Assembly (NCBI RefSeq): GCF_003339865.1
Contig: NZ_QPKV01000005.1
Location: forward strand, 1 to 64,000
Length of the DNA stretch: 64,000 nucleotides
Direction of reading: 5' to 3'
Source: Pedobacter chinensis
Lineage (GTDB): Bacteria; Bacteroidota; Bacteroidia; Sphingobacteriales; Sphingobacteriaceae
Below the pieces are notes generated by a model. The model made no database searches and was not told the origin of the DNA. It saw only the letters and a program-made list of their open reading frames with translations. How positions within the stretch are numbered: the stretch's first letter is position 1; each line of letters opens with the position of its first letter. Made by a program: the position numbers and the translations under genes. Shown here piece by piece: positions 15,598 to 45,559 of this stretch.

Positions 15598-15609
15598 AAG
15601 TATAAAATT

Positions 15610-19245: not shown

Positions 19246-19286
19246 TACATTGCTTTAACAGGCAATATTTGCTAAGTTTGTGTCTG

Positions 19287-19401: not shown

Positions 19402-19505
19402 GATATCGGTGGTTTGGTTTGATGTGGGTTTATTGTATTTTTATCTCCATATAATTTAGTTTAAGTTTCATGGGGAATATCCCTTATTTATGGTTGTTTT
19501 AGTTT

Positions 19506-28425: not shown

Positions 28426-30006
28426 ATGTTTTTTACAATGAAAACAGTTTTATTTTATATCGGTATGATGTTGGCCCTTGTTGCCACATCATGTTCAAAA
28501 ATTCTGGATACCACCCCACAGGATTTTATATCACCAATAAATTATTATAACACAGAAAAAGAACTGGAATCGGCACTGGCAGGAGTTTACGACCGCCTGG
28601 GCGATAATCGGGTTTATGCACAGGGAATGGCATGTTACATGGTCTTCAGTGACGAGTTCTTTATGAAGAACCAAATATCTGGAATAAATGCCAACATTGT
28701 TGATGCTTCTACGCTGGAACTGAATAGGCATTGGGAAGCACTTTATACCGGGATTGAAAGAGCAAATATGCTGCTCGATAATATTGATAAAGCTCAGGTG
28801 AGTGAAGCAAAACGGAATGAAATTAAAGGCCAGACACTTTTTTTAAGAGCCTATTATTATTTTTTGCTGACGGATGAATTTGGGGCAGTTCCGCTAAAGT
28901 TGCAGTCTACCAAGTCACCTGAAGAAGAACCTCTTCCGGGTACACCAATAAAGGATATTTACGAGCGTATCGTGGCAGACATGAAACAGGCCGAAATCTT
29001 GGTTAAATCCGTTTCAGACTATGGCTATAACACACGTATCACTAAAACTACGGTACAAGGAATATTGGCAAGGGTTTATTTAACCATGGCAGGTTTTCCG
29101 TTGAACGATGCATCTAAATATGCTGAAGCAAGAAGCTATGCAGAAAAAGTGATGCAGTCTGGATTACACGATCTGACCCCCGACTTCAGCCAGATTTACA
29201 TTAACCACGTTAGAGAAGTATTCGATACCAAAGAGAATTTATGGGAAGTAGAGTTTAAAGGAACGGGCCAGGGTGAAATACAGGAAGCTGGCACGATTGG
29301 AAGTTATAATGGCATTACCTGCGGAATTATTGAGATAGGCTATGGCTATGATTATGTTCATGCTACTGCCAAGCTTTATGATGCTTACGCGAGTGGTGAC
29401 CAGCGAAGAGACTGGACAGTTGCACCTTACAGGTATGTAACTACCGGGCAAACGGCTGTACGTACCAATTGGGCGGCAGATCAGATCTACGATCGAAGCA
29501 ACGGGAAATGGAGGCGCGAGTATGAACTGGTTTTACCGAGAAACCAAAACATGACGGGCACGAATTGGCCACTTTTAAGATATGCCGATGTATTGCTGAT
29601 GTTTGCAGAAGCCGACAACCAGGTAAACGGCGGGCCCTCTGCAGCTGCGTACAACGCCATCAATATGGTAAGGCGAAGAGGGTATGGAAAAAATGTGTCT
29701 ACACCCGACACCCAGGCAGACGCTGTTGCCGGGCTATCTAAGCAAGACTTTCTGGACCTGATCAGGAACGAAAGGCTGCGTGAACTTGCTTTCGAGGGTA
29801 TCAGGAAACACGATCTTGTGCGATGGGGTATTTACCCATCTGTTATGCAGGCACAGGTAAGGGAGTACCAGACCAACATGCCGGCAGCTTTAAGAGATCC
29901 CGCTATAGCACAGGCACAGCGGGTAACGGAAAGGGCTGTTTTATTCCCGATTCCGAATAGTGAATTGGCCGTTAACCCTAATATCAGACAAAACACAGGA
30001 TGGTAA
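28426..30006 (+). CDS. SusD/RagB family glycan-binding lipoprotein
   Basis: The product has 526 residues from 28426; an ATG at 28438 (MKTVLFYIGMM) gives a better signal peptide. The lipobox is LVATSCSKILDTTP. SusD-fold marks include GQTLFLRAYYYFLLTDEFG, WPLLRYADVLLMFAEADNQV and RNERLRELAFEGIRKHDLVR near the C-terminus. It is the extracellular lid of the SusC transporter encoded 5 bp upstream and should bind the PUL's glycan. The DUF5017 lipoprotein gene overlaps or directly follows its end. Confidence 0.95.
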   Translation: MFFTMKTVLFYIGMMLALVATSCSKILDTTPQDFISPINYYNTEKELESALAGVYDRLGDNRVYAQGMACYMVFSDEFFMKNQISGINANIVDASTLELNRHWEALYTGIERANMLLDNIDKAQVSEAKRNEIKGQTLFLRAYYYFLLTDEFGAVPLKLQSTKSPEEEPLPGTPIKDIYERIVADMKQAEILVKSVSDYGYNTRITKTTVQGILARVYLTMAGFPLNDASKYAEARSYAEKVMQSGLHDLTPDFSQIYINHVREVFDTKENLWEVEFKGTGQGEIQEAGTIGSYNGITCGIIEIGYGYDYVHATAKLYDAYASGDQRRDWTVAPYRYVTTGQTAVRTNWAADQIYDRSNGKWRREYELVLPRNQNMTGTNWPLLRYADVLLMFAEADNQVNGGPSAAAYNAINMVRRRGYGKNVSTPDTQADAVAGLSKQDFLDLIRNERLRELAFEGIRKHDLVRWGIYPSVMQAQVREYQTNMPAALRDPAIAQAQRVTERAVLFPIPNSELAVNPNIRQNTGW

Positions 30007-30023
30007 CCACAAAATTGTACAAG

Positions 30024-30923
30024 ATGAATAAGTTAATAATTGCATTTGTGATGTTCTTTTCTCTGGCTTCCTGCCAGAAAACCTATGAGTTGGGACCTCA
30101 GGATGATTTTTCTGTTGAAACCGAAAAAACCAGTTATAAAGTTGGAGAGCCTGTCCGGTTTATCGTTAAGGGAAAACCGGATAATATTGTGTTTTGGTCG
30201 GGCGAAGTGGGCCGTAAATATGAGTTCAGAAAAAGGACCGCGGTAGAAGGAAATTCCGTTTTTCTCAACTTTAATACTTTCGCCCAATTCGGGCTGATGC
30301 CCATCGATCAGTCGGTAATCAAAGTGTACGTATCAACCGACTTTAATGGAAAATATGAGGCCGCAAGTGTAAGATCGGCCACTTGGGAAGACATTACGGA
30401 TAAAGCTGTGCTCTCTTCCGGTCAGGATCAGACACCTTCGGGGGATATCGATCTCAGTAGTTTCGCAGCCCGCAATAAAAGTATGGCAATTGCCATGGTT
30501 TATAAAACTACCGTCATCAAACCAGAAGCACAGCAAAACCGCTGGGTAGTCCGTACTTTTAACCTGAGAAGCGTTAACCAGCAGGGAGAACAAACCATAT
30601 TGGCCACTATGGCTACTGCTGGTTGGGTTGCCTTTAACTTTAGCGGCCCAGCTACCAACTGGAGCATTACTTCAGCTCAGCTGCTTACCGTAAGGAACGA
30701 TACCGAACTGGATGACGATTGGGTGGTAACCAAACAGTTTAACCCCAACAGTACCCTGCCGGACATCGGGGAGCCCATCAAAAACATTTCTCAGAAATTA
30801 ACAGAATACACCAAGGTTTATAGCAGAGCGGGGGTATACAAAGTCACTTTTGTAGCAACTAATGCCAATTTAGAGCGCTCAACAACGGTTGTAAAGGAAT
30901 TAGAACTAAACATTACACAATGA
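30024..30923 (+). CDS. DUF5017 surface lipoprotein (SusE-like position)
   Basis: From ATG 30024 the product has 299 residues (MNKLIIAFVMFFSLASCQKT), with a lipoprotein signal (Cys17). An earlier in-frame ATG at 30000 lies inside SusD and is less likely. The first part (about 25-115) is a PKD-like beta domain (KTSYKVGEPVRFIVKG, FWSGEVGRKYEF), and the rest is DUF5017 beta-sandwich. Proteins of this family sit in SusE/F-like positions and are thought to bind glycans at the cell surface. Its stop overlaps the start of the next gene by 4 bp. Confidence 0.85.
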   Translation: MNKLIIAFVMFFSLASCQKTYELGPQDDFSVETEKTSYKVGEPVRFIVKGKPDNIVFWSGEVGRKYEFRKRTAVEGNSVFLNFNTFAQFGLMPIDQSVIKVYVSTDFNGKYEAASVRSATWEDITDKAVLSSGQDQTPSGDIDLSSFAARNKSMAIAMVYKTTVIKPEAQQNRWVVRTFNLRSVNQQGEQTILATMATAGWVAFNFSGPATNWSITSAQLLTVRNDTELDDDWVVTKQFNPNSTLPDIGEPIKNISQKLTEYTKVYSRAGVYKVTFVATNANLERSTTVVKELELNITQ

Positions 30924-33508
30924 GGTTAAATGGTGTAATATTGCTGTTGCTGGCATCAATAAGCAGTGGCTATGCGCAACTGGCTACCAAAGCGGCACTA
31001 ACCAACAACGTGATCCGACTGAACTGGGAAAATACGGGCAAAGGCTACAAGGTAAAACAGTTGTCGGTGAAGGGACAAAAGGGATGGCAGTCATTACCTG
31101 GCTCACTGGGGCAGTACACCCTGCTTTACAGTAAAGAGCAACCAGATATGAATGCACCGATTAAAGATAAAAACGGAAAGGAAATTCCATTTCCAGAACC
31201 CGAATACCGTTATATCATCCCTACCTGGAAAGCAAATACTTCTCCTGTTTCCTTAAATACAGAGGGGCGTTCCATTTCATTTTACCCGCAGCGGTATAAA
31301 CAGGTTGGCCATACACTTGTTTTTCAGCAAAAAACAGAAGTTGCTACCATCGAGGCTACCTGGCAGCTAGACTCTGTTTATAAAAATGACCTTCGTGTTT
31401 CCATCCGGTTAACAGCCGATAGGGACGGATATTATTCCATTGCAAGCCCGGTGCTTACAACAAATGATAAAAACCAGTTTCAGTGGGCCTGCATTCCCGG
31501 GGTTTTTCAGGGCAATACCATTAACAGTAATTTTATTGATGCTTATGCCTATGGTCACGGAATTCCAGATAAGCCGATGGTAGTAAGAGAGCGGACAGCA
31601 GCCGCACTTACTGCCATGCTTACCAATAAAGAAGGGATTACACTGGCGGTTACCGCCGAACCAGGAACGGCCAGAGACCCATGGGAATATGATAAATCTA
31701 CCCAATCTAACTGGCAGCTCGGCCTGTCGCTGATCAACAGGCAGCAACAACTGAGCCCAACCTTATACCATCCGGTATTAGGGCAAAAAAAATCATATTT
31801 AAAAAAAGGGGAAAACATTTCATTTGATTTCAGGTACACGGTCAACCCATCAGATTGGTATAAGGTTTATCAACATGTCGTTAATGATGTTTATCGCTTT
31901 GATGAACTGCTCCGTTTAAAACAAACCAACCAGTCCCTATCAGCACGTATGCTGCAGCTTTTAGATTATGTAAAGAAAGATAGCACTTCAAGGTGGAGGA
32001 CCTTTGATTACCAGGGTCAGCGGATTGGCGCACAGGAATATTTGGGCGGTGTTTATGAATCGGAAAAAGATGCAGTAAAAAATGCCGATTATGGAGCGAT
32101 GTGGATGTTGGCAACCCTTACACAAGACTCAATCCTTATTCATCAACGATTGAAAAATGCGTTAAATTTTAAACTGGCGCAGCAAAACACAGCTGGTGGA
32201 TTTTTTCACGGCGCTGCCGCTGGTCAATATTATCTTTATCATTCTAAACGTTTCACCGAAGAGTGGGGGCCTTATACAGAACCGATAGCCACTACGTACT
32301 ACATGTTACTCGACATGGGGAATGTGTTTTTATTTGAGCCGGACAATCAGCAGCTTAAATCGGCAATACGCTTGGCGGCCGACTGGCTTCTTGCCAAGAT
32401 GAAGCAGCAAGGTTATTGGGAAGTGGCTTATCATAACAATACCTACCAGCCTATGTTTACAGACCAGAAAGATTATAGGCCTACTTTTTATGGTTTACTG
32501 GTCGCCTATCAGGTGCTTGAAGATGAAAAATATTTAAAAGCTGCTATAACGGGCGCAGACTGGTTTATTAAAAATGCCGTAGAAAAGGGATACTTTTTAG
32601 GGGTTTGCGGAGATGCCCGTTTTGCTCCAGATTTTGCAACTGGTCAAAGTGCCCAGGCACTGCTGGATCTTTATGAGATTACAAAAGAGCAACGTTTTAA
32701 ACAGGCTGCCATTAAAACTGCACAATTTTACACCACTTCCATTTATTCTCATCCTATCCCGAACCACCAAGGCAAGAAGAGCGGAACAAGAGAACTCGAA
32801 GATTGGCAGATCAGCCAGGTGGGTCTAAGTTTTGAACACGGCGGCATTTTAGGTTCGGCCAACCCTAGCGGTCCAATTTTATTGGCCAGTCATGCCGGCA
32901 TGTTCGTAAGATTATTCCAGCTCACAAAAGACTCTTTATATCTCAAGATGGCAAGAACTGCGGCGTTGAGCAAAGATGCTTTTGTAGATCCGGCAACAGG
33001 GGTTGCCTCTTATTATTGGAGTGCCATGAATAGGGGCGCAGGTCCTTTTCCGCACCACGCATGGTGGCAAGTGGGATGGATCACAGACTATTTGATGGCA
33101 GAGCTGTCACTGCGGTCGCAGGGCAGAATTGATTTTCCGGCGGGATTCATCACGCCTAAAGTTGGTCCCCACAAAACCTTTGGTTTTCAGAAGGGAAAAA
33201 TATTTGATAAGCAGGGTGGTTTGGCCTTGATAGAAAAGCTGGTATCATTAACTAATCCTAACATGGATTATTTGTGCGCCCTGAATAAGGAGGATAAAAC
33301 ATTTTATCTATTTGTACTCAATAATGATGACGAGGCACAAGAGGGCGAGCTTCATATAAACCAATCCCGTTTTATTGGGCAACACCGTTTAGCATTGGAA
33401 ACAGCACAATGTTTTTCGGCATCTGGATCGCCAATTCCTTTCTCTTTCAATGACAAGATTAAAATAGCACCCTATGGCTTGCAGGTATATACATTTAAAT
33501 ACCAATAA
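30920..33508 (+). CDS. Secreted helical-toroid protein A, unassigned enzyme
   Basis: This 862-residue protein has a signal peptide (about 1-19). An all-beta N-terminal half (about 20-310) leads into a long alpha-helical region (about 320-720) with repeated two-helix motifs such as LLVAYQVLEDEKYLKAA and LLDLYEITKEQRFKQAA, then a C-terminal beta domain. This beta/(alpha-alpha)-toroid/beta order is shared by several glycosidase and lyase superfamilies, but I cannot name one. It is paralogous to the proteins at 33522 and 40403, sharing a W-x-I/L-S-x-V/I-G-L-x-x-E motif and a RLFQLTKDSLYLKMA-type helix. It overlaps the DUF5017 gene by 4 bp, so translation is probably coupled. Confidence 0.7.
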   Translation: MRLNGVILLLLASISSGYAQLATKAALTNNVIRLNWENTGKGYKVKQLSVKGQKGWQSLPGSLGQYTLLYSKEQPDMNAPIKDKNGKEIPFPEPEYRYIIPTWKANTSPVSLNTEGRSISFYPQRYKQVGHTLVFQQKTEVATIEATWQLDSVYKNDLRVSIRLTADRDGYYSIASPVLTTNDKNQFQWACIPGVFQGNTINSNFIDAYAYGHGIPDKPMVVRERTAAALTAMLTNKEGITLAVTAEPGTARDPWEYDKSTQSNWQLGLSLINRQQQLSPTLYHPVLGQKKSYLKKGENISFDFRYTVNPSDWYKVYQHVVNDVYRFDELLRLKQTNQSLSARMLQLLDYVKKDSTSRWRTFDYQGQRIGAQEYLGGVYESEKDAVKNADYGAMWMLATLTQDSILIHQRLKNALNFKLAQQNTAGGFFHGAAAGQYYLYHSKRFTEEWGPYTEPIATTYYMLLDMGNVFLFEPDNQQLKSAIRLAADWLLAKMKQQGYWEVAYHNNTYQPMFTDQKDYRPTFYGLLVAYQVLEDEKYLKAAITGADWFIKNAVEKGYFLGVCGDARFAPDFATGQSAQALLDLYEITKEQRFKQAAIKTAQFYTTSIYSHPIPNHQGKKSGTRELEDWQISQVGLSFEHGGILGSANPSGPILLASHAGMFVRLFQLTKDSLYLKMARTAALSKDAFVDPATGVASYYWSAMNRGAGPFPHHAWWQVGWITDYLMAELSLRSQGRIDFPAGFITPKVGPHKTFGFQKGKIFDKQGGLALIEKLVSLTNPNMDYLCALNKEDKTFYLFVLNNDDEAQEGELHINQSRFIGQHRLALETAQCFSASGSPIPFSFNDKIKIAPYGLQVYTFKYQ

Positions 33509-33521
33509 ATTTTTTAAGATC

Positions 33522-36500
33522 ATGCATCTTCAAAAAACCAATATATGTTTATTGCTTTTGGCGGGTCTATTTTTAAATATGTCCAAAGCCAATGCACAAC
33601 AGGAAAAATGCCTGGTATTGGGAACTGATTTTCAGTTTAAAGGCAAATGGTTTACCGAAGTAAACAGGGAGGGGATCAACGGTAGTATCTTAAGATTTCT
33701 GGAGGGCGAACTGGACGTTACATCGGATGCGTTGACCGTGTTGAACGTTGGAAAGCCCGGGCGATATGCCGTCTGGATCCGTACACCAGATTTTGAAACA
33801 TCCCCACGTACAAGGCTGTTTCAGCTTTCGGTTGGCAATGCCAAGCTAAAAAAGGCAGGAGGGCATGGAAAACCTGGTTATGCATGGGAACATCTGGGTT
33901 ACGCAGACCTTAAACAAAAAGAAGTATTGCTACGGCTGCATAATTTCAATTTTGGTCGCTGTGATGCCATCCTTTTTATGCAGGATAGCACAATAAATCC
34001 AAATAATTTAGATAAAAAAACACTTTTGTCATGGAAAAAACTTCCTGTTGAACAAGAAGTATTTACTGATGAAAAGAAAAATACAACCCCATCGCTGCGG
34101 TTGAACGATACCGATAAGGTCATTGCTCAAATTGAAAATGAGGTAATGCGTATACAATTTTTAACAACCGGAACAAATCAAAGCGCTATTGCCTGCCGTA
34201 CAGCAATCAAAAAAGACGGACAATGGAAGCAGCCGATGGGTACAAAAATCGAAGACCATGGTGTTTTTTTGATCAGCAGCGATACTACTGCCATCCGCTA
34301 TAACAAGTACTACCCAACCTGGGATTCACAGACACCGAAAGCCTATTTTGTTTTCAACGATCAAAAACATGCGGTACATAAAACAGGGGATGATTTCAAT
34401 CCTTTTGAAGCAGGAAACCTTAGTGAAGCTATTCCCATTGCGGCAAAAACTGTTGATAAACAGATGATAGAGGTCCAGTATGTCACGCGCAATGGTTCTA
34501 CTATTACCGGTTTATGGTCACTGTTGCCCGGACAACTACATATTCGTTTGCGGCTCATTTGTAAAACAGCCCGTCCGGGTTACTATAGCATGGGCGTTGC
34601 TGCCTTTCAGCCGATTGCGCAGGATGAATTGGAAAATGTGCTCATGGCACCTATGTTCCAGTTTAAGCGTCTTTCTGATGGTCCGCAAATGATGATTACG
34701 GCCATGATGCAGCAGCCGGTTACCATTGTTTCCTCAAAGACACCACAAGGTACCGTTTCCAGTTACGTTGCGGCAGCGCCAGAATTGTTTAAAAAAGACT
34801 GGGGCTCGGTAGATTATGCACCGGCAGGCTTTACACTTAAAAACCACAATAATCAGATACAACCAGTCATGTTTTCACCTGTATTGGGAATGAGTGATTC
34901 TAAATATCGTGCTGGGGAGTTAATCGACAGACAATTCGTAATTGGTGTAGCACCTGGTAATTGGGACATGGCTATGGATGATGTATCCAAGGAGGTATTC
35001 GAGGTAAGGGATTATCGTAAACAGGAACAGCTGTCGCTTACCGATGCCGTGTTTAATATGATTGAGCTGTTTAAAAATGACAATGCTGCGGGGTGGGCCG
35101 CCCAGCTAAAAGGATTCTATGATATTGAAGGAGATCCTACAACAGCACCAACAGTGGTAAATGCTACGCCACTATTGAATGTTGCACTGTCGGTACTGCA
35201 AAACGATGAAGATTTTTACATTAAACGGTCGTTGCCGACCATAGAATTTACGCTTTCAAGAAGTGGTTACCGCTGGGCTATAGATATTGTTCCCACAGCA
35301 TTTAATGCAACCAGAAAAACGTTGGAAATGAATCCTTTAACTTCTCAGTTTACTACTTCTTATTATGTGGGATTGGACCATTTGTTAAACGGCTTAAACC
35401 CTTGGATAAAGGCGATAGCCCTACCAGGAGATAGCTTGAGAACAGCCAAGGGATATTCAACAGATTTCCATTCATGGAACCAGGCGCTTTGGGCCTATCG
35501 CCTAACAGGTCAGGCAAAATGGTTGCAATTGGCTAAAAAAGATGCCGATCTTTTTATCCAGCGTAAAATATATAGCAATACCAACAATGTACTTAGCCAT
35601 ATACCCTTTTATAACACTACTTTTTATGCACCCTGGTGGGATTTGTTGGATCTATATGAATCTACAAAAGATACAAAGTATTTAAAAGCCGCTGAATATG
35701 GCGCTTATTTTACCATTGCAGGCATACGAAGCTATCCGAAGGTAAATGATACTTTGCAGACGATTCATCAAGGTAATCGTTATGACGGGGTTACCCGGAT
35801 CTGGTGGAAAGGCAATGAACCCTACCGTTTAGGATTTCCAAGAAAAAAAGACGACGTATTGGAAAAGAAAGTGCCAGAATGGCTCGTATCACCTGTAGGG
35901 CTGGGGTTGGAGCAACCAAGTACCTATTTTACACGGGTAAAAGGTCAGACGGTACATCCGGTGTTTATGAGCAGCTGGGCACCGCATTTGCTGCGATTGT
36001 TTCAATATGTAAATAAACCTATTTACGAAACCTATGCACGTAATGCAGTTATTGGTCGTTTTACAAATTATCCGGGATATTATAGCACGGGCTTTACCGA
36101 TGTACACATGGCACCTGATTTTCCTTATAAGGGCCCCGATCTAAGTTCTATTTATTATCATCATATCCCTCCTCATCTTGCATTTAGCTTAGATTACCTC
36201 ATTACAGAAACCATGCAACGCGCTAACGGGAATGTCATGTTTCCATATAGTAAGCAAGAGGGCTTTGTATGGTTTAATAACAGAATATATGGCGGTGGTA
36301 AAGGTAAGGTTTTCGGAGATTCGGAGGTTGTACTGCGGATGCATAAAGAGCTGGTAACGGTTCAAAATCCGGGAATAAACTATGTAACAGCAGTTTCTGA
36401 TAAAAATTTCTGGATCCTGCTGTCTTCTGAAGTGGACAGCGAACAAAAAGTGGCAGTACAATGGAACAAAGCTGCAAATGCCCAAAAGGAGGGAACGGCA

Positions 36501-36935
36501 TTAGGCTATGAAAACAATGGGCAGTCTGCCGCATTAAACTTTAAAGAATCGAAGCTGGAGGTAACAGTTCCCGCAAAAGGGTTCAAAGCAATTGCTGTTC
36601 CACTTGCTGCGGCACCCGTGGTGGCCAAATATTCGCCAGTTAAAGAAGGGATGAAAGTTTTTGACCTTGGTGCGCCTTGGGGACGTATCTATCTGTTCCG
36701 CATTCGTTCGCCATTTGGTTGGGATACGTGCTATGGGTTTGCAGAAACCGCTCCCCTAAAGAATCATTCGGTAACGGTTACCTGTAATAAAAACGTACAG
36801 CAAATTAACCAGTATCCTTATGAATGGAGCTTCAGCAAATTGCCTATGGGCGAAAACTTAACGCTTGAACTCATCTTTAAAAGTGATGACGGAAAAACAA
36901 AATCAAAAAAAATTGTGCTCAATGGTAACGAATAA
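33522..36935 (+). CDS. Secreted helical-toroid protein B, unassigned enzyme
   Basis: From ATG 33522 it has 1,137 residues with a signal peptide ending near SKANAQ. An extra N-terminal beta-sandwich (about 25-145, GRYAVWIRTPDFETSPRTR) precedes the beta domain, the toroid (about 510-900) and C-terminal beta domains. Shared motifs with its paralogues are LLDLYESTKDTKYLKAA, WLVSPVGLGLEQ, HLLRLFQYVNK, NAVIGRFTNYPGYYSTG and NPGINYVTAVSDKNFWILLS. Conserved Trp, Tyr and acidic residues in the toroid could form an active site, but no known catalytic signature was recognised. It starts 13 bp after paralogue A. Confidence 0.7.
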   Translation: MHLQKTNICLLLLAGLFLNMSKANAQQEKCLVLGTDFQFKGKWFTEVNREGINGSILRFLEGELDVTSDALTVLNVGKPGRYAVWIRTPDFETSPRTRLFQLSVGNAKLKKAGGHGKPGYAWEHLGYADLKQKEVLLRLHNFNFGRCDAILFMQDSTINPNNLDKKTLLSWKKLPVEQEVFTDEKKNTTPSLRLNDTDKVIAQIENEVMRIQFLTTGTNQSAIACRTAIKKDGQWKQPMGTKIEDHGVFLISSDTTAIRYNKYYPTWDSQTPKAYFVFNDQKHAVHKTGDDFNPFEAGNLSEAIPIAAKTVDKQMIEVQYVTRNGSTITGLWSLLPGQLHIRLRLICKTARPGYYSMGVAAFQPIAQDELENVLMAPMFQFKRLSDGPQMMITAMMQQPVTIVSSKTPQGTVSSYVAAAPELFKKDWGSVDYAPAGFTLKNHNNQIQPVMFSPVLGMSDSKYRAGELIDRQFVIGVAPGNWDMAMDDVSKEVFEVRDYRKQEQLSLTDAVFNMIELFKNDNAAGWAAQLKGFYDIEGDPTTAPTVVNATPLLNVALSVLQNDEDFYIKRSLPTIEFTLSRSGYRWAIDIVPTAFNATRKTLEMNPLTSQFTTSYYVGLDHLLNGLNPWIKAIALPGDSLRTAKGYSTDFHSWNQALWAYRLTGQAKWLQLAKKDADLFIQRKIYSNTNNVLSHIPFYNTTFYAPWWDLLDLYESTKDTKYLKAAEYGAYFTIAGIRSYPKVNDTLQTIHQGNRYDGVTRIWWKGNEPYRLGFPRKKDDVLEKKVPEWLVSPVGLGLEQPSTYFTRVKGQTVHPVFMSSWAPHLLRLFQYVNKPIYETYARNAVIGRFTNYPGYYSTGFTDVHMAPDFPYKGPDLSSIYYHHIPPHLAFSLDYLITETMQRANGNVMFPYSKQEGFVWFNNRIYGGGKGKVFGDSEVVLRMHKELVTVQNPGINYVTAVSDKNFWILLSSEVDSEQKVAVQWNKAANAQKEGTALGYENNGQSAALNFKESKLEVTVPAKGFKAIAVPLAAAPVVAKYSPVKEGMKVFDLGAPWGRIYLFRIRSPFGWDTCYGFAETAPLKNHSVTVTCNKNVQQINQYPYEWSFSKLPMGENLTLELIFKSDDGKTKSKKIVLNGNE

Positions 36936-36942
36936 AATTGGT

Positions 36943-38340
36943 ATGAAAGCGATATTGCTTGGTTGTCTGTTGATTTCTACAATGGCATTTTCTCAGGAAA
37001 GTGCCGATAGGGATAAAATTGCAGCTTCTCAGACAGGAGCGTCGCCGATTTATTTTGCTTTGGCCGCTAATATTCCTAAAGTTGAACCAGGAAACTATAC
37101 CAACGAACAGGAGTGCATTGTGCGTGCCGGACTTCCAAGGTTCTTCGCAAAGGTGAACAGCGGTAAAGAGGTGGTGGTTGCTTTTATTGGAGGGAGCATT
37201 ACGCAGTCAGATTTTGGCTATCGCCTTCAAACGGCCAGCTATATGGAACAAACTTATACTCAAGCTAAGTTTAGGTGGATCAATGCAGGAGTTTCAGGTA
37301 CCGGAACCGAGCTAGGTGCCTTTAGGATCCAGGAGCATGTGCTTAACCATCGCCCAGATCTCATTTTTATAGAATTTGCCGTTAATGGTGCTTATCCCGA
37401 TGGCATGGAGGGGATGATCAGGCAAACGATTAAACTTAACCCCGATGCAGAGATCTGTCTAATCTATACCATTTTAAATGGTCAATCTGCTTTTTATCAA
37501 AAAAAGGAACTACCGCCAAATATTATAAGACTAGAGCAGCTTGCTGCCTATTATGAGCTACCATCGGTAAATTTAGGAATGGAGGCATCAAGCCTGGAAG
37601 CATCAGAAAAACTGATATGGAAAGGGAGTTCACAAACAATTGGCCAGCATCAAATTTTGTTTTCCGAAGATGGGATTCATCCTACTATAGCCGGTGGCAA
37701 TCTGTATGCCGCAGCCATAGCCCGTGCCTTTAAAAAAATTGGAGCCGCAAAACAGCTAATAAAGGGACAATTGCCTAAACCATTGATCACCTCGGCCTGG
37801 GATGAGGCAACGATGGTAGATCCCTCAATTTTGGCAATTGAGAACAATGGCTGGCAGTTAATACCAACAGCTGCCAATCCGAATCTTAAAAAATTCAGTC
37901 CATGGTTTCCAAATGTGCTTACGGCAAACAAGCCAGGAGCAAGCTTTAGTTTTCGTTTCAAGGGAGACACGATAGGGATTTTTGATATCGGCGGGCCGGA
38001 GGTTGGACAGTTGGAATGGCATATAGATGGAAAGCCCGTAAAATTAAGCAAAGAGAAGCAAGGAAGCTTTAGCTATTATCAAGCTACCAATGCAGCCATA
38101 GCAGATGCATTGAATAGATTCAACGCCTTTTGCAACAACCGCTACCGCGGACAGTTTGATGTGATAAAAGTACCAGCGGGAGAACATGTGGTAACTTGTA
38201 ATTTATCTGGGCAGCAAGCCGATAAACTGGGGATACTCCCCGAAGACAAGAGAGCCGACATTGTCAAAAATCCAGAAAAATATAATCAAACAGTTATTTA
38301 TTTAGGACGGATTTTATTGAGAGGGAGCATACTGAAATAA
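36943..38340 (+). CDS. Secreted SGNH/GDSL-family hydrolase
   Basis: From ATG 36943 the product has 465 residues with a signal peptide (MKAILLGCLLISTMAFSQ). The SGNH blocks are visible: block I GGSIT with the nucleophile Ser, block II Gly (GVSGTGTELG), block III Asn (EFAVNGAYPDG), and block V DGIHPT with the Asp-His pair. A C-terminal beta-sandwich (about 280-465) may bind carbohydrate. Such enzymes in PULs usually remove acyl groups (for example acetyl) from glycans. It follows paralogue B by 7 bp. A longer reading from 36865 would overlap that gene and is unlikely. Confidence 0.88.
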   Translation: MKAILLGCLLISTMAFSQESADRDKIAASQTGASPIYFALAANIPKVEPGNYTNEQECIVRAGLPRFFAKVNSGKEVVVAFIGGSITQSDFGYRLQTASYMEQTYTQAKFRWINAGVSGTGTELGAFRIQEHVLNHRPDLIFIEFAVNGAYPDGMEGMIRQTIKLNPDAEICLIYTILNGQSAFYQKKELPPNIIRLEQLAAYYELPSVNLGMEASSLEASEKLIWKGSSQTIGQHQILFSEDGIHPTIAGGNLYAAAIARAFKKIGAAKQLIKGQLPKPLITSAWDEATMVDPSILAIENNGWQLIPTAANPNLKKFSPWFPNVLTANKPGASFSFRFKGDTIGIFDIGGPEVGQLEWHIDGKPVKLSKEKQGSFSYYQATNAAIADALNRFNAFCNNRYRGQFDVIKVPAGEHVVTCNLSGQQADKLGILPEDKRADIVKNPEKYNQTVIYLGRILLRGSILK

Positions 38341-38345
38341 ACCGT

Positions 38346-38416
38346 CCATGATTAAAATAATCATTAAACACATACAGAAGTGATTATTTTAATCATGGTA
38401 AGCTCCATCTTACCAT
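38346..38416 (+). repeat. Two consecutive perfect stem-loops inside the PUL operon
   Basis: Stem 1 is an 18-bp perfect inverted repeat (CCATGATTAAAATAATCA at 38346-38363, complement at 38381-38398) with a 17-nt loop. Stem 2 is ATGGTAAG (38395-38402) with CTTACCAT (38409-38416). The two overlap by 4 nt, so they are mutually exclusive at the base. No T tract follows. They sit in the 98-bp gap between the SGNH and GH97 genes, one of the few gaps in the operon, and could act in mRNA processing or attenuation. Confidence 0.7.
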
Positions 38417-38438
38417 TGAAAAACATAAAAATAAACGG

Positions 38439-40397
38439 ATGAAATACATCGCTGTAAAAATAATCGGTAGCTTGCTGCCAGAGTTTCCTTCAAAAGGTTT
38501 AGGATTGCATAAGATAGCAGCATTTTTGCTCGCACTAAATATATTGGTATGGATAGGTAGTTTTATGCCTGCCACGGCCAGCTGTGCCGAAAAGCCATTA
38601 CTGCTTAAAAGCCCATCCGCTGCCGTAACTGTCCGCATTTTTAAGGAAGGAGATAAAGGGTTTTTCTATACGTTATCTTTAAATAATCAAGAGCTGATCA
38701 AGCCTTCCCGTTTAGGTTTGAGTATTTCTGGAAAGCCTTTGTTAGATGCAGCTGCTGAACCTGAACTTTTAGCTAGCAAAACCATAACAGAATCCTTTGC
38801 CCTGTTGCGCTATAATTATCAGCAACGGAGCGTATCATACAAAAAATATCAAATCAGCATTGGTAAAAATAGGATAGAATTGGCCGTGTTTGACAATGGT
38901 TGCGCTATCCGCTATCAATTGCCCAATGCGCAACAGGTGCATGTTACAGCAGAGCAAACAAGTTTCGTTCTAGACAGTGGTGTGCGCGCGTGGTTCTTTG
39001 AGCGCAACAATAATTGGAAGCTCAAATCTTATGCGGGCTTATGGATGCAGACTCGATTGGATAGCCTTGACAGAATTTCTGCAACCGGCCCCATACAGGG
39101 CAAGCCTATTGTAGCACAGTTAGCAGATAAAAGTTACCTGTTTATTACAGAGGCCGCACTGCAGCATTACAGTGGGATGCGCTTAAAAGCCAATAAGAAC
39201 AGTTTATCGGTAGATTTTACCGAGGGCGATAAGGGCTTTTTTGTACAATCGGGAAAAGGCTCTTTTACGCCCTGGCGCATAATTGGATTGGCATCCAATT
39301 TAAACGAGCTGGTTAACCAAAACATTGTTGAAGCTTTAAACGAGAAACCCGATGAATATCTTTATGCGAATACAGACTATATCAGCCCGGGAAAAAGTGC
39401 CTGGAGCTGGATTACTAGGCGTGAAGATTACCTGGAGCCGGCTGTAGAGAAAAGCATTATCGATGCTGCAGCCCAGTTAAATTATAGCTATACGTTAATT
39501 GATGATGGATGGGAAGAGAAATGGAAACAAAAATGGCAAACGCTAAAGGAGCTGGTAGATCATGGACAGCAAAAAAATATTAAGGTTTGGGTATGGAAAG
39601 ATTCCAAGTATTTAAGGGATACCGCCTACTGTAATGCTTTTCTGGATACATTGAACAGATTAGGAGTTGCCGGTATAAAAATTGATTTCATGAATAGTGA
39701 GGCCAAGGAACTGATAGATTTTGAGATAGGTTTCTTAAAAGCTGCAGCGCAGAAAAAGCTAATGGTCAATTTTCATGGTTGCCACACCTCTACGGGCGAA
39801 TACCGCAGCTTTCCTAACGAAATGACCAGGGAAGGTGTCCGGGGAGCGGAGCTCAATATTATGAATGAGCCAATTCCCGCATGGCACAACACAGCACTTC
39901 CCTTTACCAGGTATATCACCGGGCCAGCAGATTATACGCCCGCACTTTTTTCTAATAGAGCATCTACAACACTTACCCATCAACTGGCACTGCTTTACTT
40001 GTTTGATTCGCCGTTTCAATGTATTGCAGAAAATCCGGTAACGCTTGTAAACGATCCGCTGTACAAACCCATACTTCCATTGATACGGAATCTGCCCACA
40101 ACCTGGGACAGCACTTTGGTATTGGACGGAAGCGAAATAGGCAGCTGCGCCATCATCGCTAAAAAGAAAGGAGAGGACTGGTATGTAGCCGCAATTAACG
40201 GACTTACCTCGGAAACGAATATAACATTAGACCTCTCTTTTGTAAAAGGGCTTTCAAATTATAGGGCAACCGCTATTCAGGATGCCAAAATGGGGTTTTC
40301 TTCATTAGCTACAGTTCCGTCTCAATTACATAAAAAGAAAATATCCATTCCCCCTATGGGAGGTTTTGTAATCCACTTGCAGCCAATAAAACAATAG
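38439..40397 (+). CDS. GH97 family glycosidase, alpha-galactosidase type
   Basis: This 652-residue protein has an N-terminal hydrophobic segment (about 25-45) that may be a signal or anchor, an N-terminal beta-sandwich (about 50-300), a catalytic barrel (about 310-560) and a C-terminal beta domain. GH97 members are either inverting (Glu base) or retaining (Asp nucleophile). Here AGIKIDFMNSE supplies D416 where the retaining alpha-galactosidase type has its nucleophile, and REGVRGAELN (E471) fits the acid/base. So it should release alpha-galactose (or beta-L-arabinopyranose), not glucose. The conserved metal-site region (KPDEYL, NEMTREG) is present. Confidence 0.88.
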   Translation: MKYIAVKIIGSLLPEFPSKGLGLHKIAAFLLALNILVWIGSFMPATASCAEKPLLLKSPSAAVTVRIFKEGDKGFFYTLSLNNQELIKPSRLGLSISGKPLLDAAAEPELLASKTITESFALLRYNYQQRSVSYKKYQISIGKNRIELAVFDNGCAIRYQLPNAQQVHVTAEQTSFVLDSGVRAWFFERNNNWKLKSYAGLWMQTRLDSLDRISATGPIQGKPIVAQLADKSYLFITEAALQHYSGMRLKANKNSLSVDFTEGDKGFFVQSGKGSFTPWRIIGLASNLNELVNQNIVEALNEKPDEYLYANTDYISPGKSAWSWITRREDYLEPAVEKSIIDAAAQLNYSYTLIDDGWEEKWKQKWQTLKELVDHGQQKNIKVWVWKDSKYLRDTAYCNAFLDTLNRLGVAGIKIDFMNSEAKELIDFEIGFLKAAAQKKLMVNFHGCHTSTGEYRSFPNEMTREGVRGAELNIMNEPIPAWHNTALPFTRYITGPADYTPALFSNRASTTLTHQLALLYLFDSPFQCIAENPVTLVNDPLYKPILPLIRNLPTTWDSTLVLDGSEIGSCAIIAKKKGEDWYVAAINGLTSETNITLDLSFVKGLSNYRATAIQDAKMGFSSLATVPSQLHKKKISIPPMGGFVIHLQPIKQ

Positions 40398-40402
40398 TGT
40401 GT

Positions 40403-43252
40403 ATGAAAATATGGAGTAGAATGATAAGTAGCAGATACATTAAATTCATTTGTTTTTTAGGTATTTGCTGTTCGTACAGGTCAGTAAATGGGCAAACGAT
40501 AGCCGCTGGAGGCAATGCATTCGAAATTGTATCGAAAGGCGAAACCTATCAGTTTAAGCCCGATTTTGTAGTCATCTTCAATGAGAAAGATCCCGAAATT
40601 GCGTTAAAGCCTTCAGGACTAAAAAAAGTTCCCTACAATATTCCCACCTGGAAAACCACCGACAATCGATTAGCCGATTACAGTCAACAAGCTGTTGATG
40701 CCAGTGTTGCCGGCGATGGGTTTGATGACAAGATCTTAAGAAGCGCACAGCAAAACAGAACGGCCAATATTTACCATGCCGGAACAACGTATTTTCTTAC
40801 TGCGATTAAGGCGGTAAGTGCCGGAGATTCCATTAGTTATACTTTTCCAGCACACCCAATGTTTACGTTAAAGGCATGGCTGATCAAAGGTTTGCCGTAT
40901 CCCAAGGTCAGATTTTTATTTACGCCTAAAAAGAATGGTTTTTATAGCGTGGGCTACATTGGTGCGCCATCTTTCAAAAGTGATAGCACCCGTGAGTTAT
41001 GGCAACCGCTGATATGGACAGAAAAACGGACCCCGCCGCAACCTTACCTTACACCATCATTTATGACCACAATACCTGCTACTTTGGTAAATGACGGGCA
41101 TAATTCGATAGGGGTATTGGCAGATCCTAAGTATTTGCCTTTCCAACCTTTGCCGCTTTTTACCAACAGCCAGTTCGGAGTTGCCCTGCTTAACCATAAA
41201 TCGCTGTTGCAGTCCCAGCTTTTTGCACCCATGCCGGGAGGCGTCAATTCACAAATGACAGCTGGACGTGCTTTTGAATTTTCCATGAATCTGGTGGTCG
41301 ATTCTGCCAGCATCACCAAAACGTATGAAAAAATTGCGACAACAGTATTTGGCTTTAGGGATTACCGAACCAATGCTACCGTTTCCATGAATACTACGCT
41401 AGATAACCTGATTGATTATTCCAAAACTCGTTATGCCTGGTTTATCGATAGCCTGAAAGGTTTTGCCTATTCTACCGATGTACCTGGCGCTGTAAAAAAT
41501 GTTTCGAGCTTAAATCCACTTGAGCTGTCGATTATAAGGGATGACAAGGAAATGTTTGATAAAAGGGCCTATCCCTTAATGGAGTTTATGCTATCGCGTG
41601 AAAAATTCCTGTTTGCCATTGATAGTAACCAGAAAATTCAGTCGCCGTCAAGAAAGCTAAGAGGGCCCATCGCCCCATTATCAGAATTACAGGTGCTGTA
41701 CAATGTTTTTGGTAAAAACAATTCATTCTATGCCGCAATGGCCAAAAAGGAGTTCGGCACAACACGCATCAGGAATCTTGACGAAGTGCAAAAAGGAAAG
41801 AACTGGGTCAATGCCATGTATATGTTTAAGCTCACATCAGATTCATCTTATTTGCGTTTGAGCATTACCCTGGCAGATAAATATTTGCAAGAAAGGGTGT
41901 ATACACGGATCACACAGTTTGGAGATCCCTTGTTCAGTTCTAATTTTTTCTGGCCCACATTTACAAACAATTGGTCGGCACTTTTAGAGTTATACGAACT
42001 TACAGGCCAAAGCCGGTATCTACAGGCAGCGCAAGATGGGGCCAGGCATTATACTTTGTTTACCTGGATGGCGCCCCAGATACCTGATAGTCTGGTTACC
42101 GTGAACAAGGGCGGAAAGGCACCGATGTACTGGTATCTTAAATCAAAAGGCCACCAACAGATGTATTACCCCGAAGAGACAGTTCCTGCTTGGAGGCTTT
42201 CTGAAATAGGGCTTACGCCCGAGTCGTCGGGAACTTCAACGGGTCATCGTGGTATTTTCATGTCTACCTACGCCCCATGGCTGCTAAGAATTGGCTATCA
42301 TACCAAAGATTCTTATCTGATGAATGTAGCCAAAGCTTCGATTGTTGGTCGTTCTGAAAGTTTTCCGGGCTATCACATGAACACCGAAAGAACTACGGCC
42401 TATGAAAAGGCAGATTTTCCGCTTCATGAGCATAAAGCGCAGAGCGTAAACTCTTTTCATTACAACCATATTTTGCCAATGGCCTCTATGTTCATCGACT
42501 ATCTGGTTTCAGATGCTTATGTAAAAAGCGATGGAAAGATCAGCTTCCCAAGTGATTACATAGAAGGATACACCTATTTGCAGAACAAGTTCTATGGGGC
42601 TAAGAACGGCAGGTTTTTCCAGTTCGAAAATGCCCGGCTGTGGATGCCATCCCGTTTGTTGCAAATTGATGATCATGCATTAAATTACATCAGTGCAAAA
42701 ATGGGCGATACGCTGCTTCTGGCTTTTATGAACCAGTCTGGAGCAGAGGTAAACACGCGGGTTTCGGTAGATCTTTCCCGTGTCGGTTTTGCGGGCAATA
42801 CCACCATCCATAACTTACATCCGTCTGGTAAATCGACATTTTTAAAGGATGGTGTATTTCAGCTTCATGTTCCTGCAGGTGGAATGGCTGCTGTGGCTAT
42901 TGCTGACGTTAAAATCCCGACCGGTTTCCAGGATCAGCTCCTTCATGCTGAAAAAGATCATAGAAGCGATTATGCCGATATCCCGGAAGGAAATACCAAA
43001 GCATTATTGTTTAAGCTGGGTTCTTATGCACAAAAACTTTTCGTTTTTCTCCAAGAAGACGATACAAAATGGAAGAAGGCCACCATCAGCTATAAAATCA
43101 ATGGGAAAAAAGAAATGAGCATGGATAAAAATGAATATCCATTTGAATTTACCATACCAATTGAAATGGATAAGCCGGTTAGTTTTTATCTGAAACTAAC
43201 AGATATCAACGGAAAACAGATTAGGACTAAAATAACGGAATTAGGAAAATAA
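40403..43252 (+). CDS. Secreted helical-toroid protein C, unassigned enzyme
   Basis: From ATG 40403 it has 949 residues with a signal sequence (about 10-32, ending SVNGQ); a GTG at 40397 is possible. Like paralogues A and B it has a beta N-terminal half, an alpha-helical toroid (about 350-770) and beta C-terminal parts. Shared motifs are LLELYELTGQSRYLQAA, WRLSEIGLTPE, WLLRIGYHTKDSYLMNVA, SIVGRSESFPGYHMNTE, and ALNYISAKMGDTLLLAFMN. The last 90 residues form an extra domain also seen in B. It starts 5 bp after GH97. No catalytic family is recognised. Confidence 0.7.
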   Translation: MKIWSRMISSRYIKFICFLGICCSYRSVNGQTIAAGGNAFEIVSKGETYQFKPDFVVIFNEKDPEIALKPSGLKKVPYNIPTWKTTDNRLADYSQQAVDASVAGDGFDDKILRSAQQNRTANIYHAGTTYFLTAIKAVSAGDSISYTFPAHPMFTLKAWLIKGLPYPKVRFLFTPKKNGFYSVGYIGAPSFKSDSTRELWQPLIWTEKRTPPQPYLTPSFMTTIPATLVNDGHNSIGVLADPKYLPFQPLPLFTNSQFGVALLNHKSLLQSQLFAPMPGGVNSQMTAGRAFEFSMNLVVDSASITKTYEKIATTVFGFRDYRTNATVSMNTTLDNLIDYSKTRYAWFIDSLKGFAYSTDVPGAVKNVSSLNPLELSIIRDDKEMFDKRAYPLMEFMLSREKFLFAIDSNQKIQSPSRKLRGPIAPLSELQVLYNVFGKNNSFYAAMAKKEFGTTRIRNLDEVQKGKNWVNAMYMFKLTSDSSYLRLSITLADKYLQERVYTRITQFGDPLFSSNFFWPTFTNNWSALLELYELTGQSRYLQAAQDGARHYTLFTWMAPQIPDSLVTVNKGGKAPMYWYLKSKGHQQMYYPEETVPAWRLSEIGLTPESSGTSTGHRGIFMSTYAPWLLRIGYHTKDSYLMNVAKASIVGRSESFPGYHMNTERTTAYEKADFPLHEHKAQSVNSFHYNHILPMASMFIDYLVSDAYVKSDGKISFPSDYIEGYTYLQNKFYGAKNGRFFQFENARLWMPSRLLQIDDHALNYISAKMGDTLLLAFMNQSGAEVNTRVSVDLSRVGFAGNTTIHNLHPSGKSTFLKDGVFQLHVPAGGMAAVAIADVKIPTGFQDQLLHAEKDHRSDYADIPEGNTKALLFKLGSYAQKLFVFLQEDDTKWKKATISYKINGKKEMSMDKNEYPFEFTIPIEMDKPVSFYLKLTDINGKQIRTKITELGK

Positions 43253-43264
43253 TTCAATCAAATA

Positions 43265-45559
43265 ATGATACGAAAAGAGGCAGAAGAAAACCGTAGTTTA
43301 AAAATTGAAAAGTATAATACCGATCTTGCTATTATTGGTGGCGGGATGTCTGGTGTGTGTGCAGCCATCACAGCGGCAAGGCAGGGTTTAAAGGTGATAC
43401 TTGTACAGGACAGGCCCGTTCTAGGCGGCAATGCATCTAGCGAGGTTCGGTTATGGATACTGGGAGCTACTTCACACATGGGCAATAATAACCGCTGGAG
43501 CAGGGAGGGTGGCATAATAGATGAGCTGCTGGTAGAAAACACTTATAGAAATCCCGAGGGAAATCCGATCATACTGGATATGATTTTATTGGACAAAGTG
43601 AAACAGGAACCCAATATCACGCTTTTGCTTAATACTGCTGTGTATGAAGTAAACAAAAGTGAACCAGAGAGGATCGAAAGCATCAAGGCTTTTTGCAGCC
43701 AGAACGCTACAACCTATATTATCCATGCACCCTTGTTCTGTGATGCATCTGGCGATGGAGTTGTAAGTTTTCTGTCTGGGGCAGCATTTAGAATGGGGGC
43801 AGAAACAGCCGAAGAATTTAATGAACCAATGGCACCGGATGCGAGTTATGGCGAATTATTGGGACATTCACTTTATTTTTATACAAAGGATACAGAAAAG
43901 CCGGTTAAGTTTACTGCTCCGGCATTTGCAATTGATGTACAAAAGGAAATACCACGCTATAAGAGCTTTAATGCCAAGGAACATGGTTGCAAACTGTGGT
44001 GGGTAGAACATGGCGGCAGAATGGATACTGTGCATGATACAGAGAAGATTAAGTGGGAATTATGGAAAGTGATCTATGGCGTATGGGATTATATCAAAAA
44101 TTCGGGTAATTTCCCTGAGGCAGAAAATTATACTTTGGAATGGGTAGGAATGATACCGGGCAAACGGGAGAGCCGGAGATTTGAAGGAGATTATATACTT
44201 TCCCAATCTGATTTGATTGAGCAAAAAGTGCATGAAGATGCCGTTGCCTACGGTGGATGGTCTATTGACCTGCATCCTGCCGATGGCGTATTCAGTGAGC
44301 GTTCGCCATGTAACCAGTGGCACAGTAAAGGTATCTTTCAAATACCTTACAGGTGCCTTTATAGTAAAAACATTAAAAATCTGTTCCTTGCTGGGCGCAT
44401 CATCAGCGTGAGCCACGTAGCCTTTGGGGGCACCCGGGTAATGGGCACCTGTGCCTATGTTGCGCAGGCAGCAGCCGTGGCAGCAGCATTGTGTTTAAAG
44501 CATCACAAACTACCAGCCGAATTGTACCAGGACAATTACATGCCACATTTGCAGAAAGCATTGATCAGAACCGGTCAATATATTCCAAATGTGGATTGGG
44601 AAGATGAGGCAGATAATGTTCAACAGGCCAATTTAAAGTCTAGCTCACACTTTGAATTTAAAGGGTTTAACAGGGATAATCTCGTTTTTAAAACACTTTC
44701 TATTGCTGCCGCACAAATGCTACCTGTCCATCCCGGCAAGTTTCCGGCATTTAAGGTATTGCTTAGAGCTGATGCACCTACTACATTCCAGGCAGAATTA
44801 AGGATTAGTGCGAGGCACGGTGGTTTTACACCAGATACAGTACTCGCTGTAAAACATATTGCATTGCAGGCTGGAGAACAGGATGTAAACATTGATTTTG
44901 ATGTAGTTATTGATCAGGACCAATATGCTTTTGTCTGTTTTTTAATCAATGAAAAGGTACAACTGGCCTACTCCGATCAAAGATTTACAGGTATGCTTTC
45001 TGTTTTTAATGGTGTAAATAAAGCTGTTTCTAATAATGGTAAACAGGTAGCGCCCGAAGGATCTGGCGTAGAAACCTTTGAATTTTGGTGCCCGCAGAGA
45101 AGGCCGGAAGGCCAAAATATAGCCTTGCAGTTTGACGAAGTCATCCATACATTTTCTGAACATAACATAAAAAATGGAATAGATCGTCCAACAGTACAGC
45201 CCAACGCATGGGTAGCCGATCTGGCCGATCCGGCCCCTACTATTGAAGTAGCGTGGGAACACGAGAAGTTTATTGAAAAAATTGACCTGGTATTTGATAC
45301 AGATACAGATCATCCGATGGAGTCGGTACTGATGACGCATCCCGAAACGGTAATGCCTTTTTGTGTAAGAAATTATCATATTGAGGATGAGCACGGCAAT
45401 GTTGTTTACCGCAAGAGGGACAATTACCAGGCCCGGAATGAAATCGTATTTGAATCTCAGCTAAAAATTAAAAAATTAAAGATCATATTGGAGCATCCAT
45501 CGACTAATGTGCCAGCTTCCTTATTTTCGGTACGGTGTTATACCATAAAACATTTCTAA
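43265..45559 (+). CDS. FAD-dependent oxidoreductase (FAD_oxidored type)
   Basis: This 764-residue protein has no signal peptide, so it is cytoplasmic. The FAD-binding motif IIGGGMSGVCAA lies near residue 26, followed by GGNASSEVRLWILG and the second FAD motif DASGDGVVSFLSGA. The FAD part ends near residue 425 (FGGTRVMGTCAYVAQAA), and the last 300 residues are a beta-rich domain of unknown role. Such proteins recur in PULs of Bacteroidota and Planctomycetes. Oxidation of an imported sugar is a plausible role but not proven. The symporter gene begins 1 bp after its stop, suggesting that the two act on the same molecule. Confidence 0.85.
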   Translation: MIRKEAEENRSLKIEKYNTDLAIIGGGMSGVCAAITAARQGLKVILVQDRPVLGGNASSEVRLWILGATSHMGNNNRWSREGGIIDELLVENTYRNPEGNPIILDMILLDKVKQEPNITLLLNTAVYEVNKSEPERIESIKAFCSQNATTYIIHAPLFCDASGDGVVSFLSGAAFRMGAETAEEFNEPMAPDASYGELLGHSLYFYTKDTEKPVKFTAPAFAIDVQKEIPRYKSFNAKEHGCKLWWVEHGGRMDTVHDTEKIKWELWKVIYGVWDYIKNSGNFPEAENYTLEWVGMIPGKRESRRFEGDYILSQSDLIEQKVHEDAVAYGGWSIDLHPADGVFSERSPCNQWHSKGIFQIPYRCLYSKNIKNLFLAGRIISVSHVAFGGTRVMGTCAYVAQAAAVAAALCLKHHKLPAELYQDNYMPHLQKALIRTGQYIPNVDWEDEADNVQQANLKSSSHFEFKGFNRDNLVFKTLSIAAAQMLPVHPGKFPAFKVLLRADAPTTFQAELRISARHGGFTPDTVLAVKHIALQAGEQDVNIDFDVVIDQDQYAFVCFLINEKVQLAYSDQRFTGMLSVFNGVNKAVSNNGKQVAPEGSGVETFEFWCPQRRPEGQNIALQFDEVIHTFSEHNIKNGIDRPTVQPNAWVADLADPAPTIEVAWEHEKFIEKIDLVFDTDTDHPMESVLMTHPETVMPFCVRNYHIEDEHGNVVYRKRDNYQARNEIVFESQLKIKKLKIILEHPSTNVPASLFSVRCYTIKHF

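Follow-up and report, generated by a model that had tools for sequence, protein, structure and literature searches.

The locus described here raises the question of which activity is carried by three large proteins that stand among genes for glycan uptake and degradation and were assigned to no family. The proteins, in the following called A, B and C, are encoded on the forward strand of a stretch of 64,000 nucleotides from Pedobacter chinensis (contig NZ_QPKV01000005.1, positions 1 to 64,000; this whole stretch is referred to as the window). A lies at 30920..33508 (862 amino acids), B at 33474..36935 (1153 amino acids as opened, the true start probably lying some codons downstream of the start of the open reading frame, ORF), and C at 40397..43252 (951 amino acids, nearer to B than to A). 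As laid out below, it is assumed with a probability of about one half that A, B and C represent one undescribed enzyme family acting in the periplasm, the members of which would most likely be exo-acting glycoside hydrolases (GH).

A search of the own genome with B returned only B, C and A, all on one contig. Identity between B and C amounts to 27% (E 1.7e-57), and the match of B to A showed an E-value of 2e-9. In the comparison of profiles with hhalign, A matched the combined profile of B and C with a probability of 100% (E 9.2e-56) over 753 columns, while the single comparisons gave E-values of 1.4e-34 for A with C and 1.1e-66 for B with C. Judged from these alignments, A, B and C are paralogues over nearly their whole length, with B and C closer to each other than either is to A. 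An initial annotation of the window had placed three paralogous proteins around an SGNH hydrolase and a GH97 enzyme, and both the ORFs and the profile-profile E-values confirm this arrangement.

For the analysis of conserved residues, relatives were collected by a scan of a species-level genome set with a profile of A. This yielded 296 stretches confirmed by tblastn, a number that may exceed the number of genes since both search patterns lie within one gene, and the best 80 loci were fetched. The alignment of A (A2) comprised the window protein and 57 of 77 full-length A loci, the fused proteins of loci L084, L087 and L104 being left out of the 80. The alignment of B and C (A3) comprised 37 B sequences (window and 36 of 45) and 10 C sequences (window and 9 of 13), and a separate alignment of C (A4) the window and 13 of 13. 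With these sets, the three motifs that the initial annotation had described as common to A, B and C could be upheld only in part. The first one is present in all three window proteins in the form W-x-[ILV]-S-x-[VI]-G-L-x-x-E, a pattern that was widened from the original I/L after the sequences had been seen, and none of 20,000 shuffles showed it in all three. Among the aligned sequences, the widened form was found in 28/58 A, 19/37 B and 4/10 C, while the I/L form was found in 0/37 B and misses B of the window. The VGR...PGYY-like motif occurred in 37/37 B, 10/10 C and 0/58 A, and NY-I/V-x-A in 21/37 B, 10/10 C and 0/58 A (the A protein of the window reads DYLCA). According to these counts, two of the three motifs are not common to A.

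With hmmscan against Pfam and NCBIfam, the three window proteins reached no family cut-off. The initial annotation had proposed a search with hidden Markov models against CAZy and Pfam, and for the three window proteins the Pfam part resulted in near misses only, namely to GH88 and GH127. For PF07470 (GH88/105, cut-off 26.6), A showed 24.7 bits in hmmscan and in the genome search 25.6 bits alone and 26.8 bits together with its neighbours, covering only model positions 29-107 of 352. For PF07944 (GH127, cut-off 24.9), the hmmscan values were 19.0 (A), 19.1 (B) and 12.3 bits (C). B of the window rises to 30.9 bits when the genome search sums stretches of the same frame, and the A homologue of locus L087 passes the GH127 cut-off with 27.1 bits. 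Among 56 A members, 43 matched GH88 and 35 matched GH127 (E up to 0.01), and both near misses cover the helical-repeat stretch of the toroid. The comparison with hhalign resulted in 85% (A), 56% (B) and 79% (C) for GH127 and in 19%, 56% and 13% for GH88, while the values for AGE, GH76 and GH65 stayed below 2% (AGE 0.3-1.8%; GH65 0.3% for A, 0.2% for B and 0.1% for C; profiles of 7 sequences each for AGE and GH65). Likewise, hmmscan gave no Pfam match to GH65 and none to AGE (PF07221) at E up to 1.

A membership in GH127 was considered and set aside. In the fetched GH127 set E354, C356, C422 and C423 are invariant, and we take the corresponding E-x-C and CC to be the Glu/Cys site of this family. 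The CC pair was present in 19/19 GH127 sequences and in 0/105 sequences of A, B and C, of which 6 contain an E-x-C string past residue 300. Moreover, GH127 and GH88 reach 46% against each other in hhalign and are thus about as alike mutually. Together with the missing cysteine pair, this points to a signal at the level of the superfamily, and we read A, B and C as members of the (alpha/alpha)6 superfamily that would belong neither to GH127 nor to GH88.

Searches of the PDB chain sequences by phmmer and with profiles gave no convincing match. The matches obtained comprised short toroid stretches or chance similarities, the best one being a short match of the B and C profile to the toroid protein 4MU9 (E 5e-5), and no PL27 chain was found at E up to 10. 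Among the openly licensed papers listed by full-text searches, none was seen to treat this locus or family. The proposal of the initial annotation that an undescribed glycosidase or lyase family may be present fits these results, the fold of a carbohydrate enzyme and the Sus-type loci. Measured against Pfam, NCBIfam, the PDB chains and the openly licensed papers listed, the family is real and probably undescribed. It is unlikely, if realistic, that A, B and C fall within an existing CAZy family of GH or polysaccharide lyases (PL) that has no Pfam or NCBIfam model, which would be compatible with any of the chemistries discussed below. Recent families often have no Pfam model; however, neither a strong match to a PDB chain that would mark a solved member nor, among the openly licensed papers listed, one on the family was found.

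The architecture suggested in the initial annotation, with an all-beta N-terminal part, a helical toroid and C-terminal beta domains, is borne out by AlphaFold2 models of A and B. The model of A showed a mean predicted local distance difference test (pLDDT) of 91.6 and a predicted template modelling score (pTM) of 0.92. It comprises a beta-sandwich domain (26-309), linker helices (313-333), twelve helices of an (alpha/alpha)6 toroid (340-732) and, starting at 759, strands of the C-terminal beta part. The model of B (pLDDT 84.5, pTM 0.83) showed the same core, with several toroid loops less sure, and consists of an additional N domain, the beta-sandwich, the toroid and two C-terminal beta domains, one more than in A. 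The N domain (about 42-174) matches structures of the carbohydrate-binding modules CBM35 and CBM6 at a Z of about 12-13 by VIA.

The comparison of these models with known structures, likewise proposed before, led to toroid carbohydrate enzymes. For A, Foldseek listed the PL27 enzyme BACCELL_00875 (5NOK, E 2.1e-11), followed by GH65 (7FE3, 1.6e-10) and cellobiose phosphorylase (8HO7, 1.5e-9), all of which share the domain order of A. To enzymes of the PL27 and GH65/GH94/dextran dextrinase types, the fold matches at 5-15% identity. By VIA, cellobiose 2-epimerases ranked first with the toroid alone (Z 23.9, 341 residues, root-mean-square deviation (rmsd) 3.7), while the beta-sandwich and the toroid were spanned together by dextran dextrinase (9JU0, Z 20.9, 514 residues, rmsd 23.6) and, tied with it, by PL27 (5NO8, Z 20.1, 499 residues, rmsd 8.0). 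For B, Foldseek placed a GH-type fusion construct together with alpha-galactosidases in the first rows and PL27 in fifth place. According to the models, the build of A and B is that of known carbohydrate enzymes, and hydrolases and lyases are not told apart by this fold.

The possibility has to be weighed that A, B and C are PL27-like lyases which would act by beta-elimination beside a uronate. The invariant His or, alternatively, a Tyr would then serve as base, and Arg/His residues would neutralize the carboxylate. Elimination or dehydration would leave unsaturated uronates, which are cleared by GH88/105 enzymes. Besides the ranks of BACCELL_00875 for both proteins and the lower rmsd of PL27 among the two spanning matches, the build of PL27, an N-terminal beta-sandwich followed by an (alpha/alpha)6 barrel according to the excerpt of its description (PMC8377490), would be in line with this explanation. 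The same holds true for the several invariant basic loop residues of A (K387, R520, R567, K619 and H712) and for the CBM35 fold of the N domain of B, since one of the matches listed for it (2W47) is a complex with delta-4,5-anhydrogalacturonic acid. On the other hand, the PDB search gave no sequence match to PL27, the structures of GH65, phosphorylase and dextran dextrinase match about equally, and no Tyr, Asn or Gln was universal in the toroid loops of the 105 sequences. Furthermore, a GH88/105-like protein was found in only 1 of the 80 loci (1275 ORFs of at least 150 amino acids searched with a model of 12 sequences), which speaks against products with unsaturated uronate ends, though the genome of the window holds such enzymes elsewhere (e.g. 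C15:130201-131256, 358.7 bits). Altogether, lyase chemistry is regarded as unlikely, yet as a serious alternative, and hydrolysis is slightly favoured over it.

The statement of the initial annotation that no known catalytic signature is present has to be amended, since 105/105 sequences (58 A, 37 B, 10 C) share an invariant Glu and an invariant His in the toroid loops. In total, the charged residues kept in all sequences are E639/E813/E609, R664/R841/R631, H713/H897/H691 and D723/D907/D701 (numbered for A/B/C). The models place the Glu in the loop that precedes helix 10 and the His where helix 12 begins, while the Arg and the Asp lie within helices. Toroid enzymes keep their active site on the side where this Glu and His are found. 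In A, 33 polar residues are invariant in the loops before the inner helices, and of these, E639 and H713 alone are retained in every B and C sequence. Compared to the N-terminal beta domain, the density of invariant polar residues in these loops was increased in A (33/206 vs 9/291, p 7e-7), in B (30/234 vs 6/280, p 2e-6) and in C (50/222 vs 25/241, p 6e-4). Beyond the Glu and the His, the paralogues keep different residues, as would be expected of different specificities or reactions.

One universal His and one Glu, instead of two carboxylates, would also fit enzymes that alter sugars without cutting, for instance a dehydratase or an epimerase acting on oligosaccharide ends. The cellobiose 2-epimerases as nearest matches of the A toroid by VIA are in agreement with this explanation. 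However, no sequence link to AGE was observed (0.3-1.8% by hhalign, with only 7 AGE sequences), and AGE enzymes are not known to possess a large N-terminal beta-sandwich. The GH154 enzymes are reported as uronate dehydratases in the excerpt of PMC12269599, but an activity of this kind would call for the GH88/105 partners that were nearly absent. Therefore, this explanation is considered quite unlikely.

In addition to A, B and C, the locus comprises a number of further genes, all on the forward strand except for the first one. Listed by position, it includes a divergent gene for a GntR-type regulator with a LacI-like binding domain (22158..23183, reverse strand) and a right-handed beta-helix protein (23476..25146, PF13229, with a weak GH28 match below the cut-off). 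These are followed by a SusC-like TonB-dependent receptor (25241..28420), a SusD-like protein (28426..30006, PF07980 with E 4.9e-35 and PF14322 with E 2.8e-27) and a DUF5017 protein (30000..30923), probably a surface glycan binder. Between B and C, an SGNH (GDSL-type) hydrolase, likely an esterase (36865..38340, PF13472, E 1.3e-9), and a GH97 protein (38439..40397) are encoded. The latter aligns with the retaining alpha-galactosidase 3A24 and shows an Asp, which we take to be the nucleophile, at the position where chain 5E1Q has a Gly. Downstream of C, a FAD-dependent oxidoreductase (43265..45559, 764 amino acids) is found, in which PF12831 covers residues 20-433 and about 330 further residues have no Pfam match. 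By eye, neither this protein nor the nine orthologues inspected showed a signal peptide. The gene after it encodes a sodium:solute symporter (SSF, 45561..47240), for which SGLT and vSGLT were the best sequence matches in the PDB.

Some further genes of the window are mentioned here as separate observations. About 440 bases past the symporter gene a sulfatase is encoded (47683-49182), followed by a protein that joins cytochrome b561 and molybdopterin-oxidoreductase domains (49612-51282); sulfatase-like ORFs near A were also seen in the loci L093, L115 and L118. A second SusCD locus with FecR lies on the reverse strand (10913-20696) and contains two DUF4369 thioredoxin-like proteins and a protein that combines an F5/8-type C domain with a BT_3987-like N domain. 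An alpha-L-fucosidase (PF01120) with a weak F5/8-type C domain is encoded at 56356-57771, followed by a DUF4369 thioredoxin-like gene.

Regarding the distribution, the taxonomic range was judged on the best 80 loci. By their titles, all of these originate from Bacteroidota (Pedobacter, Chitinophaga, Niabella, Sphingobacterium, Bacteroides and others), except for one titled only 'bacterium A37T11', which shows no phylum, and A of the window is nearest to Pedobacter with 83% identity. Among 296 genomes sampled evenly from the phylum, A matched in 8 genomes (4 at full length, 4 with a short stretch) and B in 9 (2 with B itself, 6 with its N-terminal domain and 1 via an A gene). No relative of B was found in the viral contigs scanned and no match of A in the plasmids scanned. 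As an observation on its own, six other genomes (L006-L009, L011, L012) encode proteins of about 600-660 residues that carry the CBM35-like N domain of B (33597-33995 of the window) close to their N-terminus. The one protein checked for the context of this domain (L038:15231-17033) is a FAD oxidoreductase of PF12831, which indicates a fusion of the CBM35-like domain to a little-known flavoenzyme family.

The genomic company of A was counted by BLAST against the window proteins (E <1e-20) in those 63 of the 80 loci that extend 9 kb or more in both directions from A (17 are shorter on one side). The counts therefore do not include diverged partners or genes that lie more than 10 kb away. SusC was present in 63 and SusD in 62 loci, SSF in 50, SGNH and DUF5017 in 44 each, the FAD enzyme in 43, B in 40, C in 18 and GH97 in 14. 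In all 80 loci, B was found in 46 (a short B fragment in L061 being excluded) and C in 18. While A occurred without B in 23 of the 63 loci, C always stood alongside B (18/18). Mapped on a tree of 58 A sequences, B switches between present and absent at least 6 times compared to 18 times in shuffles, which indicates that B comes and goes with lineages.

Among the 146 flanking ORFs without a match in the window, clusters of GH3 (17 loci), GH2 (7), a 3-keto-disaccharide hydrolase family protein (5) and GH92 (4) were observed, together with single GH31 and GH42 proteins and more SGNH proteins; since Pfam was run on representatives only, each cluster name rests on one member. Fusions were observed as well. 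A is joined to GH97 in L104:8189-12574 and to a protein with a weak match to a cellulase Ig-like domain (CelD_N) in L087:9959-14473, an in-frame run leads from SSF into A in L084:8261-12532, and SGNH is fused to GH3 with PA14 in proteins of about 1500 amino acids (L074:15991-20508 and L113:15931-20415). That A, B and C carry out three related activities on one glycan, as had been suggested initially, is plausible.

The loci containing A without B could also mean that only A is an enzyme, with B and C as relatives that bind glycans or serve another non-catalytic purpose. The less sure toroid loops in the B model and the 31 of 33 invariant polar loop residues of A that are not kept throughout B and C would be consistent with this explanation. 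Nevertheless, the Glu and the His are conserved in B and C as well, and both proteins show invariant polar sets of their own in the same loops. A non-catalytic role of these two proteins is considered very unlikely.

According to the favoured reading, i.e. a family of periplasmic and most likely hydrolytic enzymes, the pair of SusC and SusD would import oligosaccharides into the periplasm. A, B and C would be exported to the same compartment and remove terminal residues in turn from the chain ends. Since the N-termini of A, B and C resemble signal peptides by eye, the three proteins are probably periplasmic. Judged by their families, the SGNH protein may cleave off ester groups, while GH97 may release a galactose-like residue in alpha linkage. 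The active site of A, B and C is expected where the inner helices of the toroid have their N-terminal ends, and paralogue-specific loops would set the specificity. Apart from the Glu preceding helix 10 and the His with which helix 12 starts, no charged residue of these loops is conserved in all members examined, and these two are proposed as candidate catalytic pair. The monosaccharide freed by A would enter the cytosol via the SSF symporter. Since the FAD enzyme shows no visible signal peptide and the symporter is SGLT-like, the free sugar is probably imported and then oxidized or reduced by this enzyme.

Several observations weigh against this reading. A classical hydrolase needs two carboxylates, while only one universal carboxylate was found in the active-site loops. 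It is this finding that tells most strongly against a classical hydrolase; a second carboxylate would have to differ between the paralogues. Compared to the rest of the toroid, the density of invariant polar residues in the inner loops was not significantly increased (p 0.076, 0.64 and 0.20 for A, B and C). The first Foldseek match of A is a lyase, and the low template modelling scores over the whole chain (about 0.26-0.28) imply that the fold matches do not name a function. In addition, the absence of GH88/105 is weak evidence and provides a tilt only, due to the GH88 genes elsewhere in the genome and the loci shorter than 9 kb. A further, rather doubtful variant would be that the Glu/His pair serves a non-hydrolytic (eliminative or redox-assisted) release of an unusual monosaccharide. 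Together with import by SSF and cytosolic redox conversion by the FAD enzyme, the locus would then represent a dedicated module for harvest, transport and redox conversion of a sugar of undescribed catabolism.

Should A, B and C prove to be enzymes of one family, a core activity would be added to polysaccharide loci in which genes are still unassigned, and the frequent link to the symporter and the FAD oxidoreductase would point to one particular sugar. In the best 80 loci the family spans environmental genera as well as Bacteroides, and the triplication provides a natural test of how specificity changes on one scaffold. Going by the models, the fold is a known one, and any novelty would lie in the reaction.

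A comparison with known systems shows likeness mainly at the level of the build. GH154 enzymes are toroids, and they comprise PUL-encoded (PUL, polysaccharide utilization locus) Bacteroides enzymes that were once filed as a GH family. They are set apart here by their description, since the company of GH88/105 reported for GH154 is nearly absent around A. PL40 shows the reverse domain order, with the toroid first and the beta domain second in the excerpt of PMC12915356. Both families were considered: GH154 (8OI4, BcGDH) was not among the PDB sequence, Foldseek or VIA matches listed and PL40 not among the Foldseek or VIA matches listed, an absence which excludes nothing. AGE and cellobiose 2-epimerase have the toroid fold in common with A, but the alignment is confined to the toroid and no sequence link was observed. 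GH127 (PF07944, beta-L-arabinofuranosidase) and GH88/105 (PF07470) are the nearest Pfam families, over the helical-repeat stretch of the toroid, whereas the CC pair distinguishes GH127 from A, B and C. The PL27 L-rhamnose-alpha-1,4-D-glucuronate lyase BACCELL_00875 (5NOK/5NO8) has the beta-sandwich followed by the (alpha/alpha)6 toroid as in A, at about 10% identity and with no sequence match, and the excerpt of its description (PMC8377490) names no C-terminal beta domain. GH65, cellobiose phosphorylase and dextran dextrinase, although GH65 reached only 0.1-0.3% in hhalign, show the four-part build of the A model, i.e. a beta-sandwich, a helical linker, an (alpha/alpha)6 toroid and a C-terminal beta domain, as given in the excerpt of PMC8626586.

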